A stretch of DNA of 14,126 bases, taken from the NCBI GenBank assembly GCA_002403895.1, contig DHIQ01000173.1, positions 1 through 14,126 on the forward strand, read 5' to 3'. Position numbers and translations under genes: made by a program. Shown here in pieces: positions 1,286 to 10,393 of this stretch. A model generated the notes under the pieces. That model was not told the DNA's origin. It saw nothing but the letters and a program-made list of their open reading frames with translations, and ran no database searches. The DNA is from Candidatus Neomicrothrix sp. UBA4742. Lineage in GTDB: Bacteria > Actinomycetota > Acidimicrobiia > Acidimicrobiales > Acidimicrobilacustridaceae. Within the stretch, counting starts at the first letter, position 1, and the number at the start of each line of letters is the position of its first letter.

Positions 1286-2455
1286 ATGACGATGATCGAC
1301 CGTGAAGAACCGGCCGCTCCGCAGACTTCTGACGCAACGGCGAGCGACGAGAAGGCGGGTTCGCTGCTCCCCGTGATCCGGGTCATCCCCAAGTCGGCGT
1401 ATGAGAACCCGACGTGGAAGGGCCTGGCGTTCTTCGCCCGTGACCTTCTCTTCTACGGCTTGGTCGTGTGGGGCATCGCCTCCACCGACAATCCGCTGTT
1501 TCTCATCCCGTTGTTTGCCTTCGCCGCCCTCGTCGTGTCCGGCCTGTTCATCATCGGCCACGATGCCGCCCACGAGGCGCTGTTCAAGAGCCGCCGACTC
1601 AACTCCATCGTCGGCCACCTAGCCATGCTTCCGTCGTGGCACGTCTACGAAGCCTGGGTGCTGGGCCACAACCGCATCCACCACGGTCACACCGTGCGCG
1701 AGGGCATGGACTTCGTCTGGCATCCCGTCACCCCCGAGCAGTTCGGGGCCATGACTCGCTACCAGCGAATGCGTCATCGGGTCGAGTGGTCATGGTGGGG
1801 CGCCGGCTTTTACTACCTGCGCGAGATCTGGTTCAACAAGATGATCACGTTCAACCCGCCGGCCAAGTGGGCCAAGTCCATTCGCCGCGACATCATCTTC
1901 ATGTTCGCCGGCGTGGGGCTGGGCATGGCCGTGTTCGGTTGGATCGGCTGGCTCACCTACGGCTCGGCGCTCGGCGGGGCCTGGATGATCGTCAAGGCCG
2001 TCGTCATCCCCTTCCTCGGCTTCAACTTCGTGATCGGCTCGGTCGTGCACGTCCACCACGTGCAGCCCGCCATCCGCTGGTGGTCCCGCCGTGACTGGAA
2101 CAAGTTCCGGGGCCAGATGGAGGGCACCACCATCCTGCGGGCCCCGTGGGTGATCGACCTGTTCTTCCATTCGATCATGGTCCACATCCCGCACCACGTA
2201 GACATGCGCATCCCGTTCTACGGTCTCGAGCCAGCCGCGGCGGCCATCAAGGCCGAGTTCCCCGAGGCGGTCCACGACGAGAAGCTGCGATTCCGTGACT
2301 TCGCCCGCAACACCCGGGCCTGCAAGCTCTACGACTTCACCGACGGCCGGTGGATGACCTATGACGAGGGCATGGACGTCCTCATCAGAGCCACCCCGGA
2401 GGATCTGGCCGCCCGCGAGCGCCGCCGCTTCGCCAAAGGCACCATGGTCGGCTGA
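1286..2455 (+). CDS. Membrane-bound fatty acid desaturase family protein
   Basis: This 389-residue integral membrane protein carries the histidine clusters of the membrane fatty acid desaturase/hydroxylase superfamily. They are HDAAH (92-96), HNRIHH (128-133) and HIPHH (300-304), with an extra HVHH at 255-258. These would ligate a diiron centre that uses O2 and electrons from a redox partner to desaturate or hydroxylate an acyl chain or related lipid. Hydrophobic segments lie at about 49-65, 70-90, 204-226 and 234-252; the histidine clusters would face the cytoplasm. No fused ferredoxin, rubredoxin or cytochrome b5 domain is present, so electrons must come from elsewhere. ATG 1286 is chosen because the -10 ends 6 bases before it; ATG 1292 is also possible. 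The palindrome in its promoter suggests lipid- or substrate-responsive repression. Regiospecificity is unknown. Confidence 0.9.
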   Translation: MTMIDREEPAAPQTSDATASDEKAGSLLPVIRVIPKSAYENPTWKGLAFFARDLLFYGLVVWGIASTDNPLFLIPLFAFAALVVSGLFIIGHDAAHEALFKSRRLNSIVGHLAMLPSWHVYEAWVLGHNRIHHGHTVREGMDFVWHPVTPEQFGAMTRYQRMRHRVEWSWWGAGFYYLREIWFNKMITFNPPAKWAKSIRRDIIFMFAGVGLGMAVFGWIGWLTYGSALGGAWMIVKAVVIPFLGFNFVIGSVVHVHHVQPAIRWWSRRDWNKFRGQMEGTTILRAPWVIDLFFHSIMVHIPHHVDMRIPFYGLEPAAAAIKAEFPEAVHDEKLRFRDFARNTRACKLYDFTDGRWMTYDEGMDVLIRATPEDLAARERRRFAKGTMVG

Positions 2456-2469
2456 ACCGCCGGCCCGAC

Positions 2470-2475
2470 TAGCCT
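2470..2475 (+). promoter_or_regulatory. -10 element TAGCCT upstream of the CBS relic
   Basis: TAGCCT fits the TAnnnT pattern and ends 9 bases before ATG 2485, the retained start of the degraded CBS gene. The geometry is close to the leaderless promoters elsewhere in the window. If real, it is the original CBS promoter and would now drive the following cystathionine gamma-synthase gene. No clear -35 is visible. Confidence 0.35.
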
Positions 2476-2484
2476 CGGGCACCC

Positions 2485-2601
2485 ATGGAAATCGCCGGAT
2501 CGGTGCTCGACCTCGTCGGCCGCACGCCCATGGTGGCCGCGGTGATGATTTCTGGCTGGCGACGTTCGACCCTTCGGTCGTGGACCGGTGGGAGACCATG
2601 A
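2485..2601 (+). pseudogene. Cystathionine beta-synthase remnant (two internal deletions)
   Basis: ATG 2485 opens a 38-codon frame beginning MEIAGSVLDLVGRTPMV. This matches the conserved N-terminus of cystathionine beta-synthase/cysteine synthase enzymes (family pattern roughly SVLDLIGNTPLV). Right after it, in the frame of the next gene, 2544-2591 encodes DDFWLATFDPSVVDRW. In actinobacterial CBS that resembles an internal segment near residue 270 (pattern GEDFWP..YDPSVPD). About 250 codons between the two pieces are missing, with a frame change near 2536-2543, and everything after the second piece, including the regulatory CBS domains, is also gone. The catalytic lysine and PLP-binding loops are absent, so no enzyme can be made. 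The 38-codon frame ends at TGA 2599-2601, overlapping the next start as ATGA. The identification rests on recognising short motifs; an assembly error is the main alternative. Confidence 0.7.
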
Positions 2602-3743
2602 GTGACGATGTCCTCGGATTCGAGACCCGGGCGATCCATGCCGGCCAACCAGCGGACCCGTCGACCGGCGCGGTGGTGGTGCCCATCACGCTGGCCACCA
2701 CGTTTGCCCAGCGGGAGGTGGGGGGCGCCGCCCCCTATGAGTACGCGCGGTCGGACAATCCCACCCGGGCGGCACTTGAAGCGTGTGTGGCATCGCTGGA
2801 AGGGGCCGCTCACGGCTTCGCTTTCGCCAGTGGCCTGGCCGCGGAGGACGCGGTGTTGCGCAGTCAGCTGCGCCCCGGGGATCATCTCCTGCTCGGCGAC
2901 GATGCCTACGGCGGAACCTTCCGGCTCATCAGCCGGGTCCTGGCTCCCACCGGCGTGACGTGGACGGCGGTGGACCTCACGGACCCCGAGGTCGTCGCCC
3001 GCGCTTGGACGCCGAGCACCCGCCTGGTGTGGGTGGAGAGCCCGACGAATCCCCTGTTGAACGTGGTCGATGTCGCCGCGGTGGCCGAGGCCGCCCACCA
3101 ACATGGCGGGATCTGTGTGGTCGACAACACGTTCGCCACGCCCTACCTCCAGACCCCCCTCACGCTGGGAGCCGATGTCGTCGTCCATTCCACGACCAAG
3201 TACCTGGGCGGCCACAGCGACGTGGTCGGCGGCTTCGTGGCCGTCAACGATCCCTATCTGGCCGAAGTGATCGGCTTCCTCCAGAACGCCACCGGTGCGG
3301 TGCCCAGCGCCTTCGACTGCTACCTGGTGCTGCGGGGCATCAAGACCCTGCCCGTGCGTATGGATCGCCATTGCAAAAACGCCGGGCTCGTCGCCCAGTT
3401 CCTCGCCGGGCACACCCGGGTCGCCGCGGTGTACTACCCCGGGGCTGACGACCACCCCGGTCACGCCATCGCCACTCGTCAGATGCGTCACGGCGGCGGA
3501 ATGGTGTCGTTCGTGGCCGCCGGAGGTGCCGACGCAGCCCGCCGTATCGCCGGCCGGACGACCGTGTTCACCCTGGCCGAGTCGCTGGGCGCAGTCGAGA
3601 GCCTCATCGAGGTGCCGGCGGTGATGACTCACCAGTCGGTGGCGGGTTCTCCGCTTGAGGTCGACGCCGCCCTGGTGCGGCTCTCGGTCGGGCTCGAGAC
3701 GGTCGAGGATCTGCTCGAGGACCTGGCCCGCGCCCTCGACTGA
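2598..3743 (+). CDS. metB: Cystathionine gamma-synthase / gamma-lyase (PLP-dependent)
   Basis: This is a 381-residue enzyme of the Cys/Met metabolism PLP family. It either joins O-acylhomoserine and cysteine to make cystathionine (gamma-synthase) or cleaves cystathionine to cysteine (gamma-lyase); sequence alone does not separate these. It starts with the typical FETRAIHAGQ. The neighbouring-subunit PLP-phosphate motif YEYARSDNPTR is at 47-57, VDNTFATPYLQTPL at 175-188, the Schiff-base lysine K201 in HSTTKYLGGHSDVVGG, and AESLGAVESL at 327-336. Length is complete. ATG 2598 is chosen because it gives the usual N-terminus and GGTGGGAG (2587-2594) lies just upstream; the frame stays open further upstream only because it reads through the CBS relic. 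The ATGA overlap with the relic suggests coupled translation. In actinobacteria this gene often follows CBS in a reverse transsulfuration pair; here the partner is broken, which favours gamma-synthase or an alternative role. Confidence 0.9.
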   Translation: MSDDVLGFETRAIHAGQPADPSTGAVVVPITLATTFAQREVGGAAPYEYARSDNPTRAALEACVASLEGAAHGFAFASGLAAEDAVLRSQLRPGDHLLLGDDAYGGTFRLISRVLAPTGVTWTAVDLTDPEVVARAWTPSTRLVWVESPTNPLLNVVDVAAVAEAAHQHGGICVVDNTFATPYLQTPLTLGADVVVHSTTKYLGGHSDVVGGFVAVNDPYLAEVIGFLQNATGAVPSAFDCYLVLRGIKTLPVRMDRHCKNAGLVAQFLAGHTRVAAVYYPGADDHPGHAIATRQMRHGGGMVSFVAAGGADAARRIAGRTTVFTLAESLGAVESLIEVPAVMTHQSVAGSPLEVDAALVRLSVGLETVEDLLEDLARALD

Positions 3744-3794
3744 GGAGAGACGGGCGCCACCCCGCGCTGACACCGCGTGGCCGAACTCGGCCGC

Positions 3795-3800
3795 TACGGT
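3795..3800 (+). promoter_or_regulatory. Candidate -10 element TACGGT for the phosphodiester glycosidase
   Basis: TACGGT lies in the gap after the cystathionine enzyme gene and 72 bases before the proposed ATC start at 3873. A transcript from here would carry a leader of about 65 bases ending in AAGGAG. No -35 is seen at the normal distance (CTGACA at 3767-3772 is 22 bases away). If this promoter is real, a GTG start at 3777 would not be on the transcript. Confidence 0.25.
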
Positions 3801-3859
3801 GGAGTCAGGTCATGCCTCGGGTGGGGGCGCCCGGGTCCAAGACCGACTCCCCAACAACC

Positions 3860-3865
3860 AAGGAG
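3860..3865 (+). promoter_or_regulatory. Ribosome binding site AAGGAG that points to an ATC start
   Basis: AAGGAG is a strong Shine-Dalgarno sequence. Exactly 7 bases separate it from ATC 3873, which is in frame with the downstream protein. No ATG, GTG or TTG lies at a suitable distance. The earlier in-frame GTG (3777) has no such site at normal spacing; GAGGAGA at 3742-3748 is 28 bases away. Confidence 0.55.
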
Positions 3866-3872
3866 CGGACCG

Positions 3873-5117
3873 ATCACCTCCATCCTCGAGGTCGAAGCGC
3901 CTCATGCGCCGCGGCCGCCCCGACGTGTTCGGGCCAATCCCGAACGGCGCGCCCGGCGTTGGCGCATCGCCTTGGCCGTCGTGTGTGTGACGGCGCTGGC
4001 GCTGGTCATCCCCGCGGTATCGCTGGCCCAAGCCATGACGGCACCAGGCAACCTGAGCCCGACGGAGAAGGGGGTGGAGTGGCTGCGCGACCACGGCTTC
4101 GGCGGTGAGGTCAATCGCGTGGAGCACTGGTGGTTCACCAATCACCAACCCAAGACGGGGGGCACCCCTGATCGGGGCATCGGCATCGAGACGCCCTCGA
4201 CGGTGGGCGCAACACCGAGCGACGGCGGGTCCCGTGACCACACGTCCAAGCCGGCCGACGTGCCCGTCCCCGACGGCGTCTCGCCGCTGCCCAACGAGGG
4301 TGTGTGGCAACCGGTCGGCCCGATCATCGGCGGCTCCCCGGCGATGTACGGCACCCAGGTGCGGCCCGATTCGGTGCATACCAGCCTGCTCGACGGGCTG
4401 GTGTGGATGGATCCCCAGCTGCTGAGCTTCGGGCTCCACCCCGGCGTCCGAGAGCCCGGTGGGAAATGGACCACACCGGCCGAGATCCCCATGAGCGAGC
4501 GGCTGGCGTTGGTGGCCGCGTTCAATGGTGGCTTCCGGATGCAAGACGCCAACGGCGGTTTCTTGCTCGAAGGCCAGACCCGTAAGACCCTTCGCGATGG
4601 TGCCGCCTCGATGGTCATCTACAAGGACGGCACCGCCACCGTCGGCGCTTGGGGCCGGGATGTAATGATGGGACCGGATGTCGTGGCCGTTCGCCAGAAC
4701 CTCGACCTCATCGTCGACAACGGTGGGGGAGCCACCGATGGGTCAGCCGCTCCCGGCCGGCCCGCCGCCGGCCTGGGTGACGACGGCGACGGCCGGTGGG
4801 GTAAGACCCTGGGCAACAAGGTCCTGGTCTGGCGATCGGCGGTGTGCGTCGACGCCAACGGCGGCCTCGTCTATGGCTACGGCGACGGGCTCGGCGCGCT
4901 CTCACTGGCGCAGCTGATGCTTCGGGCCGGCTGCGTTCGGGCCATGGAACTCGACATCAACCCGTCGTGGACGAGTTTCAATTTCTACGGAGCGGGCCGG
5001 GCTGGCGATCCCACCTCGGTGGCCGGCACCAAGTTGCTCCCTGATCAGAAGAAGAGCGGCGACCGATATCTCAGCACTGACGCTCGAGACTTCATCGCCG
5101 TGCTCGGGCGGCAGTAG
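3873..5117 (+). CDS. Membrane-anchored phosphodiester glycosidase (NAGPA/DUF2233 family)
   Basis: This 414-residue protein has a C-terminal domain of the phosphodiester alpha-N-acetylglucosaminidase (NAGPA) family, acting outside the membrane on sugar phosphodiesters or related polymers. From the 3873 start there is a basic N-terminal tail (PRPPRRVRANPERRARRWR, about 13-31) and one hydrophobic helix (about 31-53). A Pro/Gly-rich linker with GGTPDRG follows to about 150. The glycosidase domain carries LVAAFNGGFRMQDANGGFLLEG (213-234), LDLIVDNGGG (277-286) and YGYGDGLGALSLAQLM followed by GCVRAMELDINPSWTSFNFYG (334-373). The start choice is unusual: ATC 3873 has AAGGAG 7 bases upstream and gives a short basic tail, whereas GTG 3777 would give 446 residues with an odd Pro/Gly-rich beginning and no Shine-Dalgarno. 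Later starts would cut the anchor. Its natural substrate is unknown. Confidence 0.85.
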   Translation: MTSILEVEAPHAPRPPRRVRANPERRARRWRIALAVVCVTALALVIPAVSLAQAMTAPGNLSPTEKGVEWLRDHGFGGEVNRVEHWWFTNHQPKTGGTPDRGIGIETPSTVGATPSDGGSRDHTSKPADVPVPDGVSPLPNEGVWQPVGPIIGGSPAMYGTQVRPDSVHTSLLDGLVWMDPQLLSFGLHPGVREPGGKWTTPAEIPMSERLALVAAFNGGFRMQDANGGFLLEGQTRKTLRDGAASMVIYKDGTATVGAWGRDVMMGPDVVAVRQNLDLIVDNGGGATDGSAAPGRPAAGLGDDGDGRWGKTLGNKVLVWRSAVCVDANGGLVYGYGDGLGALSLAQLMLRAGCVRAMELDINPSWTSFNFYGAGRAGDPTSVAGTKLLPDQKKSGDRYLSTDARDFIAVLGRQ

Positions 5118-5138
5118 CGGTAGGTTCGCGAGGCTCAG

Positions 5139-6017
5139 TCAGCCGTTGACCTTGGCGATGACGTTCTCCCCGAACTCGGCCAGCTTGTCGCCGATCTTGG
5201 TGGGGTTGAACGACAGGGGTCGGATCATGACTCGACTCACGCCCATCTCGGCCAACTCGCCCAGGGCGTCGACCGGATCGGGAGCAAACGCCGCGGCGCC
5301 GGATCCGGTGATCTCGATGGCATCGGGATCACGCCCGTGTTCCTCGGCGGTGGCCCGCATGGTCGAGATGAGTTCGTGCACCTCGTCGTTGGTGCCCTTG
5401 CCGGGGAAGAAGCCGTCGCCCAACCGACCGGCGCGCTTGGCCGCGGTCTTCGTGTGCCCACCAATGATCACCGGCACCTTGCCCGCCACCGGCTTGGGTT
5501 GGCTGATGGCCCGGTCGAAGTTGACGAACTCCCCGTGATACGAGGCAAGGGGCTCGCTCCACAGCGCTCGCATGGCGTGGATGTAGTCGTCGGTGCGGCG
5601 CCCGCGGTCGACGAAGGGAACGCCGAGGGCGTTGAACTCTTCTTCCAGCCACCCCACGCCGATGCCCAGCAGCAGCCGGCCGTCGGACAACTTGTCAAGC
5701 GTGGCGCATTCCTTGGCCAGCACCACCGGGTTGCGTTGGGGCAGGATCAAGATGCCGGTGCCCAGCTTGAGCGAGGTGGTCTGGCCGGCCAGGAACGACA
5801 GCCAGATCAGTGGGTCGGGGATGTCGGTGGTGTCCCCGCCCTGGATCTTGCCGCTGGGGTCGTAGGGGTACTCCGACTCGTAGCCGTCGGGGATGATGAC
5901 GTGCTCGACGGTCCACAGACTCTCGAAGCCGGCCGCCTCGGCGCCGTGGGCGATGGCCCGGGCGCCGTCGGGTGTGGCGTACGGTCCGGTGTTGGCTAAG
6001 ACGATGCCGAAGTCCAT
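5139..6017 (-). CDS. LLM class F420-dependent oxidoreductase (Rv2161c-like)
   Basis: This 292-residue luciferase-like protein resembles the probable F420-dependent subfamily found in mycobacteria and other actinobacteria. It starts MDFGIVLANTGPYATP. FESLWTVEHVIIP (31-43) is the classic loop after the second strand. PDPLIWLSFLAGQTTSLKLGTG (68-88) leads to QRNPVVLAKECATLD (94-108) and LSDGRLLLGIGVGWLEEE (110-127). The phosphate-site segment is KPVAGKVPVIIGGHT (175-189), followed by LGDGFFPG. The start has a good ribosome binding site (AGGGGGA a few bases upstream). Its start is 40 bases beyond the stop of the 453-residue paralogue, on the same strand, so it is most likely the last gene of the TetR-linked operon. 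The substrate is unknown. It is a clear paralogue of the 9374-10279 protein. Confidence 0.9.
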   Translation of the reverse strand: MDFGIVLANTGPYATPDGARAIAHGAEAAGFESLWTVEHVIIPDGYESEYPYDPSGKIQGGDTTDIPDPLIWLSFLAGQTTSLKLGTGILILPQRNPVVLAKECATLDKLSDGRLLLGIGVGWLEEEFNALGVPFVDRGRRTDDYIHAMRALWSEPLASYHGEFVNFDRAISQPKPVAGKVPVIIGGHTKTAAKRAGRLGDGFFPGKGTNDEVHELISTMRATAEEHGRDPDAIEITGSGAAAFAPDPVDALGELAEMGVSRVMIRPLSFNPTKIGDKLAEFGENVIAKVNG

Positions 6018-6057
6018 GTTTCCCCCTGATCGATGACCAGGCGGACCCTACCGGCCA

Positions 6058-7419
6058 TCATCCCTCGACGAGTCGCTCGAACTCCTCGTCGCGCTCGCCG
6101 GCCGCCTGCTTGTCGGCGAGGTTCTCCATCCACTCCTTGACCTGCTCCATCTCGAGGTCGTCGACCATCTGCTTGGGCAGCGCCTTCATGATGTAGTCCT
6201 CGGGCATCGGGGGAGCGGTGTTCACCTTGCGGGCCATCGCTTCTTCGATGATCGGCGCCCACTTCTCCGCCTTGCGGGCGCTGGCGTCGACGTCGCGCTC
6301 GATGAACTCCGGGAGCACCTCGGTGCCGAACAGTTCGAGCGACTCCATGATGTGCTCGTGGCGGTTTTTGCCCGCCTGCATCACGAAGATGAGCTGGTCT
6401 ACCCCGGCGTCTTCATAGCGGCGCAGGAACTCGCGCAGCTGATCGGGGGTGCCGATCGCGCCGCGCAGCCCGGTCACGTCACCCGACGCCGCCTTGGCCC
6501 CCAGCGTCTCGCTGCGCGCCGCGATGGCGGCCTCGGGGGAGTAGCCCATCTTTCCCCGGCGCTCCTCGAACTCTTCCCACACGTTGGTGATCGCAGGGCG
6601 GTGCTCACCGAACACGTAGAAATGGGCGAGCGAGTAGCCGAAGAAGTTGCCGCCCTCGAGGCCGCGGGCGATGGCGTCGCTCTCGTCCCGGGCGCACATC
6701 ATGGGCGTCACGCAGGCCACCTGGGGGTTGATGGCCTGGCCGACGGGGATGCACTTGGTGCGCAGCGTCTCTTCGTAGTCGGCGACCCAGTGGCGGGCAT
6801 CATCGGGCTCGATGAAGGCGAAGCTCAGGGCGCCGATGCCCTTTTCGGCGGCCAGCAGGATGGTGTCGCGCCGACTGCAGGCCACCCACAACGGGGGGTG
6901 CGGCTTCTGCGCGGGCTTGGGCACCACGTTGCGGGGAGGCATCTGGACGAATTGGCCGTCGACCCCGGTGAAGGGCGTCTCGGTCATGCACCGCAGGGCT
7001 ACCTCCAGGCCTTCGAGCCACGCCTCGCGCTTGACCGCGGGGTCGATGCGAAAGCCGCCGAGCTCAGCTTCCGACGCCGACTCGCCGGAGCCGAACTCGA
7101 CCCGACCGTTGGACACGAGGTCGAGCATGGCCACCCGCTCGGCCGTGCGGGCCGGGTGGTTGTAGCCGGGAGCGGTCTGGATGATGCCGTGCCCGATGCG
7201 CATGTTCTTCGTGCGCTGACTGGCGGCGGCCAGGAAGACCTCGGGCGCCGAGGAGTGGGAGTACTCCTCCAGGAAGTGGTGCTCGACCTCCCACACGTAC
7301 TGGATACCGAGCTCGTCGGCGAACTGGATCTGATCGAGGGCATCGTTGATGAGCTGTTGCTCGCTGTCCTCTTGCCATGGACGCGGCAACTGGTGCTCGT
7401 AGAAGATTCCGAACTTCAT
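6058..7419 (-). CDS. LLM class flavin-dependent oxidoreductase with C-terminal extension
   Basis: This 453-residue luciferase-like monooxygenase is of the larger flavin-dependent type (relatives of alkanal and limonene monooxygenases), which usually needs FMNH2 and O2 and a separate reductase. It begins MKFGIFYEHQLPRPW. YVWEVEHHFLEEYSHSSAPE (41-60) is the hallmark active-site loop. Then come GIIQTAPGYNHPARTAERVAMLD (78-100), SNGRVEFGSGESAS (103-116) and PPLWVACSRRDT (about 174-185). The barrel should finish near residue 370. About 80 charged, helical residues follow (roughly RKAEKW to the end), longer than normal for the family and possibly used for oligomer or partner contacts. The start has GGGGGGACAAGAG upstream. 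It begins 27 bases after the stop of the diiron-like gene, so the two are co-transcribed. The substrate is unknown. Confidence 0.9.
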   Translation of the reverse strand: MKFGIFYEHQLPRPWQEDSEQQLINDALDQIQFADELGIQYVWEVEHHFLEEYSHSSAPEVFLAAASQRTKNMRIGHGIIQTAPGYNHPARTAERVAMLDLVSNGRVEFGSGESASEAELGGFRIDPAVKREAWLEGLEVALRCMTETPFTGVDGQFVQMPPRNVVPKPAQKPHPPLWVACSRRDTILLAAEKGIGALSFAFIEPDDARHWVADYEETLRTKCIPVGQAINPQVACVTPMMCARDESDAIARGLEGGNFFGYSLAHFYVFGEHRPAITNVWEEFEERRGKMGYSPEAAIAARSETLGAKAASGDVTGLRGAIGTPDQLREFLRRYEDAGVDQLIFVMQAGKNRHEHIMESLELFGTEVLPEFIERDVDASARKAEKWAPIIEEAMARKVNTAPPMPEDYIMKALPKQMVDDLEMEQVKEWMENLADKQAAGERDEEFERLVEG

Positions 7420-7446
7420 CTCTTGTCCCCCCGGTCCGCGGGCTGG

Positions 7447-8565
7447 TCAGCCGAGCAAGTAGTTGCCGGTGGTGTCGACGAGCGTTCCGTCGCGGTCGCG
7501 CACGACGGTGCCCAGGCTGAGCATCTCGTCGATGAGGTCATCGGCATCGCCGCGACCCTTGGTGGCGAGCTCGACCTCGCGCAGGGTGAAGGCGAGGTTC
7601 TCGGATCGCCGCAACAGCAGCGAGTCGCCCAGCGCCTTGTCCCACAGGAGGCTGATCATCTCGGTGCCGTCGTAGGTGGCGCCGTTGTCGCCCACCCAGG
7701 TGCGGTCACGCATCTCGGACAGCGCCGTCTGCAGCCAGGCCACGTGGGGGGTCTCGTCGGAGCTGATGTAGCCGATGATGCGGGCGGCTTCGCCCTCGCC
7801 GGCGCACAGGTCGGTGTCGGCCAACACGGCCTGGGCCCAGCGGAAGCCGTGAAAGGCGGAGATCTCGATGAGGAGCAGGCCGATCATCCGCCCCACGACC
7901 ATCTCCAACGTGAAGTCGATGTCGTTGGGGAGGACCCGGTCAGCGATGGCGGTGTCGCGCAACCGAACGAGGTCCTCGGCCGTCTTGGGACGGTTGTCGA
8001 TGCCCATGCGGGCCAGCATGCGGCCGGTCTCGTCCTCGGTGACCGGGTTCTCGAAGGCGATGTCGCGGGCGGCGAACCACATCAGGTTGTGGCCGGCCTC
8101 GTCGCCATGGCCGGCTTCGTCGCGGGCATGAGCTTCGAACAGGCCGTGGTCGATGTGGGCGATGGCGGTGCCGGTGATGTCCTCGCCAAAGCTGCGCTGG
8201 AAGTCGGGGGTGGGCAGCAGGCGCAACATGGCGCCGAAGCCCTCGACGGTGCCGATGCGGGTGAGTGCCGAGATGGTGGGCTCGCGCACGCCGTTGCGCA
8301 ACAACAGCTTGGACTGGGCCACGTTGGGGAAGTTCTCAGGCCACGTCTCCAGCGGGATGTCGAGCATCGGGGTGCCGAACTGCTCGACCCGCTGGGCTTC
8401 CCAGGCCTTGATGGCGGGCCACCGGTTGCGAGTCCGGGGTGAGACGTAGGCGCCGTCCTCGTCGAAGCCGCCGTGGCAGCGGACGTCGTGAGCGATGAGC
8501 GGCTCCACATAGTCGTGGTCAGCCAATAGCTCGACGTCGGTGAACTCGACCTGGTCTGTGGTCAC
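7447..8565 (-). CDS. Uncharacterised protein, probable ferritin-like diiron enzyme
   Basis: This 372-residue protein has no family I can name with certainty. It has a conspicuous set of carboxylate/histidine motifs in predicted helices: E108 (TVEGFGAMLRL), E150-AG-H153 and E156-AG-H159 (ARDEAGHGDEAGHN), E234 in LLLIEISAFHGF, and E271-TP-H274 (SSDETPHVAW). The pattern E, ExxH, E, ExxH with about 40-, 80- and 37-residue spacings is what ferritin-like diiron oxygenases (for example the AurF type) show. I infer an O2-activating diiron role. There is no signal peptide or membrane helix. GTG 8565 is chosen because GGGGGAG (8571-8577) sits 5 bases upstream; the frame runs further up to an ATG at 8643, but that would cross the operator. 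It is the first gene of the operon and divergent from the TetR gene. Confidence 0.8.
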   Translation of the reverse strand: MTTDQVEFTDVELLADHDYVEPLIAHDVRCHGGFDEDGAYVSPRTRNRWPAIKAWEAQRVEQFGTPMLDIPLETWPENFPNVAQSKLLLRNGVREPTISALTRIGTVEGFGAMLRLLPTPDFQRSFGEDITGTAIAHIDHGLFEAHARDEAGHGDEAGHNLMWFAARDIAFENPVTEDETGRMLARMGIDNRPKTAEDLVRLRDTAIADRVLPNDIDFTLEMVVGRMIGLLLIEISAFHGFRWAQAVLADTDLCAGEGEAARIIGYISSDETPHVAWLQTALSEMRDRTWVGDNGATYDGTEMISLLWDKALGDSLLLRRSENLAFTLREVELATKGRGDADDLIDEMLSLGTVVRDRDGTLVDTTGNYLLG

Positions 8566-8613
8566 CCGGGCTCCCCCTTTGCCAACTGCGCACCCACTCG
8601 GGACGCCGAACAA

Positions 8614-8643
8614 AGTGTATACTCTTGCGTATACACCTGGCAA
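8614..8643 (-). promoter_or_regulatory. Minus-strand promoter of the diiron/LLM operon
   Basis: Read on the minus strand, TTGCCA (8643-8638) and TACACT (8619-8614) are separated by 18 bases, a good vegetative-type promoter. The start would fall near 8607, giving a leader of about 40 bases with GGGGGAG before GTG 8565. The TetR-type palindrome lies almost wholly within this promoter, so binding would shut off the three-gene operon. Confidence 0.55.
8615..8636. promoter_or_regulatory. TetR-type operator in the divergent intergenic region
   Basis: GTGTATAC (8615-8622) and GTATACAC (8629-8636) are perfect 8-base inverted arms around the 6-base spacer TCTTGC. It is the only such site I see in the window. 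It lies 24 bases before the tetR start and covers the minus-strand promoter. A plus-strand -10 (TATACT, 8618-8623) also falls inside it, so it probably controls both directions, giving autorepression of the TetR gene. Confidence 0.75.
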
Positions 8644-9373: not shown

Positions 9374-10279
9374 TCAGTTCTCCAGGGGTTTGAGTTCGGC
9401 GGCGATGTGCTCGAGTTCGGCGGACCACCCGTCGGCCGATGGTTCGCTCAGGGGGAGCAGGACGAACTTCGAGGCGCCGGCGGCCACCATCTTCTCGATG
9501 GTGGCCCGCACGGCCGGAATGCCGGTGGGGATGATCTCGCTCGGGTCGGCGAGATCAGGTCGTCGCTTGGCTATGAATTGACCGATGAGGTCGGGGACCT
9601 CGCCGTCGGCGTAGGCGATGAGGGCGCCGAAGTGCTCGGGGTCGACCTCGCGTTCGTGCTCGTCGGCCGTCTGGTTGATCACCGGAATGGCGGCGGCGAT
9701 GTCATCGGCGGTGCAGAACGACGGGAGCCACCCGTCGCCCAGCCGACCGACCCGGCGCAGCTCGCTGGGAGCGATGCCCCCGAGCCACACGTCGAGGGGT
9801 TGTTGGACCGGCTTGGGCCGGACCGTGACGGCGTCGTAGTGGAAGAACGTGCCGTCGTGGTCGACCGCGTCCTCCGTCCAGAGACGGCGGAGCAGGGGCA
9901 GTGCCTCGTTGAAGATCTTGGCCCGGTCGCCACGCTCGACCCCAAAGGCCTGCTGCTCGTGGGGATCGGCCACCCCCAGGCCGAAGGCCGGGAGCAGGCG
10001 GCCGTTCGAGAGGCGGTCCAGCGTCGCCAGTTCCTTGGCCACCAGGACCGGGTTTCGGCCAGGGAGGACCAGCACCGACATGCCCAATTTCAGCTTGGTG
10101 GTGCGGCCGGCGGCGTAGCTCAGGGCGATGAGCGGGTCGGGTGCTTCACCGCTTACCCGCTCACTGAGCCACAGCGAGTCGAATCCGAGGCGCTCGAGGT
10201 CGTCGACGAAGGAGCCGAAGGTGTCGCCGTCATGGGTGACCGTGCGGGTGCCGAGTCCGTAGCCGATGCGAATCTTCAT
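9374..10279 (-). CDS. LLM class F420-dependent oxidoreductase
   Basis: This 301-residue luciferase-like protein is probably F420-dependent. It starts MKIRIGYGLGTRTV. FDSLWLSERVSGEAPDPLIALSYAAGRTTKLKLG spans about 33-66, PGRNPVLVAKELATLDRLSNGRLL about 73-96 and GLGVADPHEQQAFG about 100-113. The phosphate-site part is RPKPVQQPLDVWLGG (154-168), with LGDGWLP at 180-186. It is paralogous to the 5139-6017 protein, sharing the RNPV.VAKE.ATLD.LS.GRLL core. The ATG at 10279 is chosen over the upstream ATG at 10366 because it gives the normal first barrel strand, and a -10 (TACCGT) ends exactly 6 bases before it, suggesting a leaderless mRNA; no Shine-Dalgarno is present. It is isolated from the TetR operon by convergent orientation. 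The substrate is unknown. Confidence 0.9.
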   Translation of the reverse strand: MKIRIGYGLGTRTVTHDGDTFGSFVDDLERLGFDSLWLSERVSGEAPDPLIALSYAAGRTTKLKLGMSVLVLPGRNPVLVAKELATLDRLSNGRLLPAFGLGVADPHEQQAFGVERGDRAKIFNEALPLLRRLWTEDAVDHDGTFFHYDAVTVRPKPVQQPLDVWLGGIAPSELRRVGRLGDGWLPSFCTADDIAAAIPVINQTADEHEREVDPEHFGALIAYADGEVPDLIGQFIAKRRPDLADPSEIIPTGIPAVRATIEKMVAAGASKFVLLPLSEPSADGWSAELEHIAAELKPLEN

Positions 10280-10285
10280 GGTGAG

Positions 10286-10291
10286 ACGGTA
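10286..10291 (-). promoter_or_regulatory. -10 element TACCGT for a leaderless transcript
   Basis: On the minus strand TACCGT ends 6 bases before the ATG at 10279, matching the spacing at 150 and 1286. No clear -35 motif is present upstream. Confidence 0.4.
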
Positions 10292-10346
10292 CCGGGAGGC
10301 CCAGCCGCTCGGGTGAGGCGCCGGACCGAGGCTCTGGCCGCGGCCA

Positions 10347-10393
10347 CTGGCGGCGGGGAGCGCCACGGGGGGCGGCCGGCTCCCCGCCGCCAG
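10347..10393. terminator. Strong GC-rich hairpin after the secreted-protein operon
   Basis: CTGGCGGCGGGGAG (10347-10360) and CTCCCCGCCGCCAG (10380-10393) are perfect 14-base inverted arms with a 19-base, itself GC-rich loop (10361-10379) that can pair further. It lies 28 bases past the stop of the minus-strand secreted-protein gene and ahead of the promoter of the 9374-10279 gene. There is no T-tract on either strand, which is common for actinobacterial terminators. Confidence 0.65.

Follow-up and report, generated by a model that had tools for sequence, protein, structure and literature searches.

A relic of cystathionine beta-synthase upstream of an intact metB in a Candidatus Neomicrothrix draft genome that also encodes a complete enzyme elsewhere

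Does the decay of one gene of an operon mean that the pathway it served has been lost? The question is raised by a short stretch of DNA between a fatty acid desaturase gene and metB in Candidatus Neomicrothrix sp. UBA4742. The window analysed here is the 14,126-nucleotide contig DHIQ01000173.1 (C97) in its entirety, one of the 285 contigs of a 3.55-Mb draft estimated to be 79% complete with 2.7% contamination. The initial annotation had read two short peptides encoded upstream of metB as remains of a cystathionine beta-synthase (CBS) gene and had taken them as a sign that reverse transsulfuration was recently lost in this lineage. The analysis described below supports the former reading and not the latter; ordinary gene loss under redundancy is the most likely explanation of the locus. 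The features concerned are collected in Table 1.

Table 1. Coordinates of the features discussed in the text (positions in the window unless another contig is named)
Feature	Position	Strand	Basis or remark
Fatty acid desaturase, upstream neighbour	1286..2455	+	PF00487 (Pfam)
N-terminal CBS relic MEIAGSVLDLVGRTPMV	2485..2535	+	codons 1-17; 50.8 bits
Internal CBS relic GRGDDFWLATFDPSVVDRWET	2535..2597	+	residues ~224-244; 33.7 bits; in frame with metB
Residual 38-codon ORF beginning at the former CBS ATG	2485..2601	+	sequence and translation
metB (cystathionine gamma-synthase/lyase family), putative former operon partner	2598..3743	+	NF005871, 569 bits, cut-off 513
Intact CBS, 458 aa, uninterrupted	C4:26268-27641 (= L002:1477-2850)		TIGR01137

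The desaturase stop (ending at 2455) and the metB ATG (2598) are separated by 142 bases, within which the two pieces follow each other in different frames; the internal piece as it was initially given starts three residues later than GRGDDFWLATFDPSVVDRWET. Both were scored with a CBS profile built from 34 rows of 33 loci in which CBS adjoins metB (L019 entered twice). Five loci of the same kind were left out of this set: L011 and L018, whose CBS genes are cut by contig ends, L053, where CBS is of full length with a match from query residue 4, L057, where the C-terminal domain is absent, and L064, where the frame is broken near codon 16. Within the 145 nt running from the desaturase stop codon to metB, the highest-scoring 17-mers reach 50.8 bits (profile position 1) and 33.7 bits (position 225), versus a maximum of 14.9 bits in 2000 dinucleotide-preserving shuffles, each read in six frames, and chance similarity to CBS was rejected on these scores. 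In a tblastn comparison covering 38 loci and the window, the N-terminal piece matches the start of CBS and the internal piece its middle, directly upstream of a metB homologue. The identities of the two pieces to the CBS upstream of metB in order-level relatives are 71% and 72% for L019, 71% and 72% for L014, and 59% and 62% for L016, and across the Acidimicrobiia-type loci in which the CBS start is present the N-terminal piece is 41-88% identical over 12-17 residues. The colinear and significant similarity at a syntenic site confirms that the two pieces are genuine CBS sequence and represent the relic of a CBS gene that formerly stood directly upstream of metB, where the initial annotation had placed it. 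Protein searches with the frame of the internal piece and with the residual ORF returned no candidate sharing three words and are uninformative, since DPSVVDR of L019, which does share three words, was not returned either. Among publications naming both Acidimicrobi and cystathionine, no title pointed to such a relic.

Most of the gene is gone. On the 454-aa reference L019, about 206 internal codons (18-223) and about 211 C-terminal codons (about 244-454) are missing; the earlier estimate of 250 internal codons was thus too high, while the complete loss of the C-terminal part was seen correctly. A functional CBS is not encoded at 2485-2601, where the catalytic PALP fold with its PLP-lysine stretch (the NPGGSxKDR region of relatives) is absent together with codons ~18-223. 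The C-terminal CBS (Bateman) domain pair is also absent at 2485-2601: similarity to CBS stops at 2597 and metB begins at the next base. Beyond the two pieces, no frame of the 145-nt stretch scores against the CBS profile. Both scraps match CBS genes of the metB-adjoining kind, but, unlike the CBS proteins described by TIGR01137, they contain neither a catalytic nor a regulatory domain.

The arrangement from which the relic would derive is the rule in related bacteria, as the initial annotation had supposed when it described the two genes as standing side by side. In a search for metB across 40 relatives, 10 have a homologue of at least 60% identity, all of them outside the window's own family (f1), and in 10/10 of these order-level relatives CBS is located directly upstream of metB. 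The best 80 metB loci from genome contigs, with flanks of up to 5 kb, add 28 assessable loci of the Acidimicrobiia type, every one with CBS directly upstream; for three of these the title goes no further than Actinobacteria or Actinomycetota, and they were counted by their position in the CBS tree. In total, CBS adjoins metB upstream in 38/38 assessable Acidimicrobiia-type loci, with at most 54 nt from the CBS stop to the nearest metB start. A 29th locus, L060, stands outside this count: its CBS gene is cut by a contig end and the C-terminal part is visible. The 51 other loci among the best 80 have CBS adjacent (5), more distant (25) or not found in the available stretch (21).

Not all of the 38 CBS genes are whole. 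Besides the two that are cut by contig ends, the CBS frame of L057 (Acidimicrobiaceae, JAPOPC010000072.1, ~3946-4956) extends for ~337 codons from the start of the match, lacks the C-terminal CBS-domain pair and stops right at metB in a TGATG overlap; the CBS proteins of L055, L059 and L061 have 450 aa. In L064 (JAJEIW010000287.1, ~3608-3660) the CBS gene upstream of metB is frame-broken near codon 16, through either decay or sequencing error.

The partner gene has fared differently. The metB gene of the window is intact, in agreement with the initial annotation, and scores above the curated NF005871 cut-off; it is 60-68.5% identical to the homologues of the 10 order-level relatives, and its closest homologues in named genomes come mostly from Acidimicrobiia, Acidimicrobiales or Acidimicrobiaceae assemblies. 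On the other side of the relic, the desaturase was considered as an ancestral neighbour and rejected: of the 25 relatives with a clear desaturase match, 13 neighbourhoods (11 from f1 and two from other families) were analysed, and metB or CBS of more than 40% identity was found in 0/13, nor does a desaturase lie near metB, within flanks of up to 5 kb, in any of the best 80 metB loci. Judging by these neighbourhoods, the desaturase is not part of the CBS-metB unit.

Near-identical metB proteins also form clusters P0001 and P0004, whose longest contigs measure 34,665 and 67,717 bases, and P0002 and P0003 hold homologues at 87-89% identity. Two of these metB genes deserve mention. A protein cluster from a 67,717-base contig of a near-identical strain (P0004) contains a metB that matches that of the window over ~305 residues with at least one substitution, after which the frame is lost and the protein terminates at 353 aa, owing to either a frameshift or a sequencing error. 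Another homologue, 89% identical to the window's metB (P0003), starts with MEIERDLGFETR, the first three residues of which equal the start of the CBS relic; the shared start is perhaps due to chance, or perhaps to a deeper deletion in a sister lineage.

The assembly encodes a complete CBS elsewhere. The protein of contig C4 is a full member of TIGR01137 (645.6 bits versus a cut-off of 510.25, residues 4-454), and its gene stands alone. Its neighbours, judged from their translations, are presumably genes of phenylalanine/tyrosine catabolism upstream and genes for a cation exchanger, a xylose isomerase and a xylulokinase downstream. When 54 CBS proteins are placed on a tree, it groups with that of G026 (100/88) and falls into a clade of Actinomycetes (100/99), separate from the operonic proteins of G027 and G031. 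The G026 protein, its nearest relative (75%, from another family), is encoded upstream of metB, and the clade of the C4 CBS therefore also holds operonic copies. The relic is too short to be placed on this tree; it shares only 9/17 and 10/19 residues with the C4 CBS and is therefore not a recent duplicate of it. Since an intact 458-aa CBS is present, the proposed loss of reverse transsulfuration is not supported: CBS is not missing from the genome, subject to the possibility of contamination discussed below, and homocysteine can probably still be converted to cysteine.

Other genes of the assembly bear on the same chemistry. PALP pieces on C103 and C237 were considered as the missing CBS and rejected; judged from their translations, they are the termini of a single cysteine synthase that contig ends have split. 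An O-acetylhomoserine sulfhydrylase-like protein is also encoded (571.9 bits, subfamily cut-off 495.1), as is one more member of the gamma family that falls below every cut-off shown.

As to whether the two contigs come from one organism, the gene content points both ways. Homologues of the window's desaturase occur in 22/24 other f1 genomes at 58-65% identity, and in three non-f1 genomes at 47-57%; the oxidoreductase at 6058-7419 is 73-77% identical to proteins of only three f1 genomes, and reaches up to 73% in non-f1 genomes. On C4, the xylose isomerase located 1.1 kb downstream of CBS matches five f1 genomes at 76-82%, a sixth at 57% and two non-f1 genomes at 56-59%. This argues against the reading in which C4 is a contaminant and the organism has no CBS at all, so that the pathway would truly be lost, as does, weakly, the agreement in composition between C4 and the window. 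The GC content is 0.679 in the window and 0.69 and 0.679 in two C4 stretches, values that fit the spread among the other sampled contigs of the bin, and the tetranucleotide distances between window and C4 (14.0 and 14.1) fall inside the range of 12.8-23.9 found within the bin for sampled contigs; the weight of this evidence is small because a foreign locus, L044, at a distance of 18.4 from the window, falls inside the same range. The contaminant reading draws its strength from the family: none of the 24 other f1 genomes has a full-length CBS, the closest relative of the C4 protein comes from another family, and the neighbouring 4-hydroxyphenylpyruvate dioxygenase on C4, at E 1e-60, matches nine non-f1 genomes but none of the 24 other members of f1. 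Partial CBS matches in the f1 genomes amount to 46-48% over the first ~310 residues in three, none in one, and shorter or weaker ones (36-52%) in the rest; metB above 44% is likewise absent from all 24, save one 43-residue segment at 53%, which makes either gene unusual in f1. On balance both contigs probably come from one organism, the 2.7% contamination leaving some doubt, and we regard true loss of the pathway as very unlikely. The intact CBS is situated between the 4-hydroxyphenylpyruvate dioxygenase gene, which has no f1 match at E 1e-60, and the f1-type xylose isomerase gene (G000:C4:23602-29947, L167), and the surroundings of CBS on C4 likely mark a boundary of acquisition or of retention.

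Just as improbable, in our estimation, is an artefact in which a full CBS gene exists at the site and distant parts of it were wrongly joined by the assembler. The fragmentation of the draft is in keeping with such an error, as are the single occurrence in the assembly of a 221-bp stretch of the window, with no second copy, and the likewise frame-broken CBS of L064, which may itself be an error. However, two wrong joins would be needed within one gene, with the order of the pieces and the start of metB preserved. No direct repeat of at least 17 bases and no N is found in the window, a check that covers the window itself, the missing sequence lying outside it. The retained sequence speaks against an artefact as well: in the internal relic, E at 227 is replaced by D and P at 231 by L, and both columns are invariant in 54/54 intact CBS. 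Of the 11 columns that at least 95% of the intact proteins keep, the relic deviates at 2/11, while in a leave-one-out test of the 54 intact proteins 53 deviate at none and one deviates at a single column. Such deviations fit DNA free of constraint and not a working gene that was wrongly assembled. They also speak against a very fresh loss, so the loss is not demonstrably recent, the sense in which the initial annotation had described it. Misassembly and contamination are both unlikely, and we infer that deletion removed the rest of CBS.

It is also conceivable that the remnant is alive. The residual ORF opens with the former CBS start codon and closes with a TGA (2599-2601) that overlaps the ATG of metB as ATGA, and such an ORF may have been kept as a leader that brings ribosomes to metB; the abstract of PMC10666635 presents 4-nt overlaps as typical for coupled gene pairs. 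A start codon overlaps the CBS stop in 26/38 Acidimicrobiia-type loci, a count that rests on mechanically taking the start codon nearest to the CBS stop as the metB start, a choice that favours overlaps, and the shortened CBS frame of L057 still reaches metB through its TGATG. Taken together, these observations mean that the remnant could keep metB coupled to upstream translation. The statistics are weak: when the inner codons are shuffled, the frame stays open in 1995/5000 cases, and a third of all frames reach the TGA, which gives ~13% by chance, and the residual ORF is thus easily due to chance. No second copy of the remnant ORF was found with which its conservation could be compared. We consider a living remnant unlikely on these grounds, and the more elaborate version, in which CBS would have been whittled down to a selected 38-codon coupling leader for metB with the enzyme supplied from another locus, somewhat more doubtful still. 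If the leader were real, it would mean that genes of an operon can decay without silencing a downstream partner.

Taken as a whole, we hold it to be rather probable that a redundant operon CBS was deleted while the second CBS on C4 persists and metB remains intact, which is also the simplest account of the locus. According to this account, the ancestor would have possessed the usual Acidimicrobiia CBS-metB operon downstream of a desaturase gene. The second CBS, now on C4 beside the genes of phenylalanine/tyrosine catabolism and near that of xylose isomerase, may have been already present or may have been gained later, and the existence of two copies would have made the operon copy dispensable. 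At least two deletions would then have joined codon ~17 to codon ~224 and codon ~244 to the start of metB, which would have been kept intact and served by the C4 CBS. The order of these events and the role of the C4 protein as a functional replacement are inferred from the present arrangement. The searches turned up no close relative whose operon CBS is intact, and the deletion breakpoints are therefore not fixed to the base; that microhomology between the VSD segment of CBS and the start of metB (MSDD) was behind the second deletion is speculation.

Gene remnants left by deletion are a general class in bacterial genomes, and the window resembles them in its two colinear scraps, broken frame and substitutions at conserved positions; it is unlike them in that the scrap forms an open ORF overlapping the start codon of its neighbour. 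In L057, too, a shortened CBS frame reaches metB with overlapping start and stop, but that locus retains the catalytic part of the enzyme (~337 codons) and the window almost nothing. Among Actinobacteria, a pair arranged as the window would have been, CBS immediately ahead of metB and both genes in the same orientation, is found in Rhodococcus qingshengii IGTS8, where, in a passage of PMC9426449, cbs (1,386 bp) and metB (1,173 bp) are predicted to encode C-beta-S and C-gamma-S/L, which the authors call nonessential. In contrast to the IGTS8 pair, the window retains only ~38 codons of CBS, and the complete gene is solitary and lies on a different contig. The locus offers a clear case in which an operon partner is lost while the enzyme is still encoded by a further copy at a different site, and it cautions that one relic is insufficient to infer the loss of a pathway.

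Some features of the remainder of the window may be recorded. Four genes for luciferase-like oxidoreductases lie within its 14 kb (150-995, 5139-6017, 6058-7419 and 9374-10366); the LLM genes at 150 and 5139 pass F420-dependent LLM cut-offs, and the other two resemble the first by tblastn. The gene downstream of metB (3777-5117) scores 20.2 bits for phosphodiester glycosidase (NAGPA), below the threshold of 25. A scan for Rfam families gave 0 matches in the window at gathering scores. When positions 1286-8643 are compared with a locus of G035 (L187, 5900-12541), the desaturase, two LLM oxidoreductases and the gene at 7447-8643 are found in the same order, and other ORFs of G035 lie where the window carries the relic, metB and the gene at 3777-5117.
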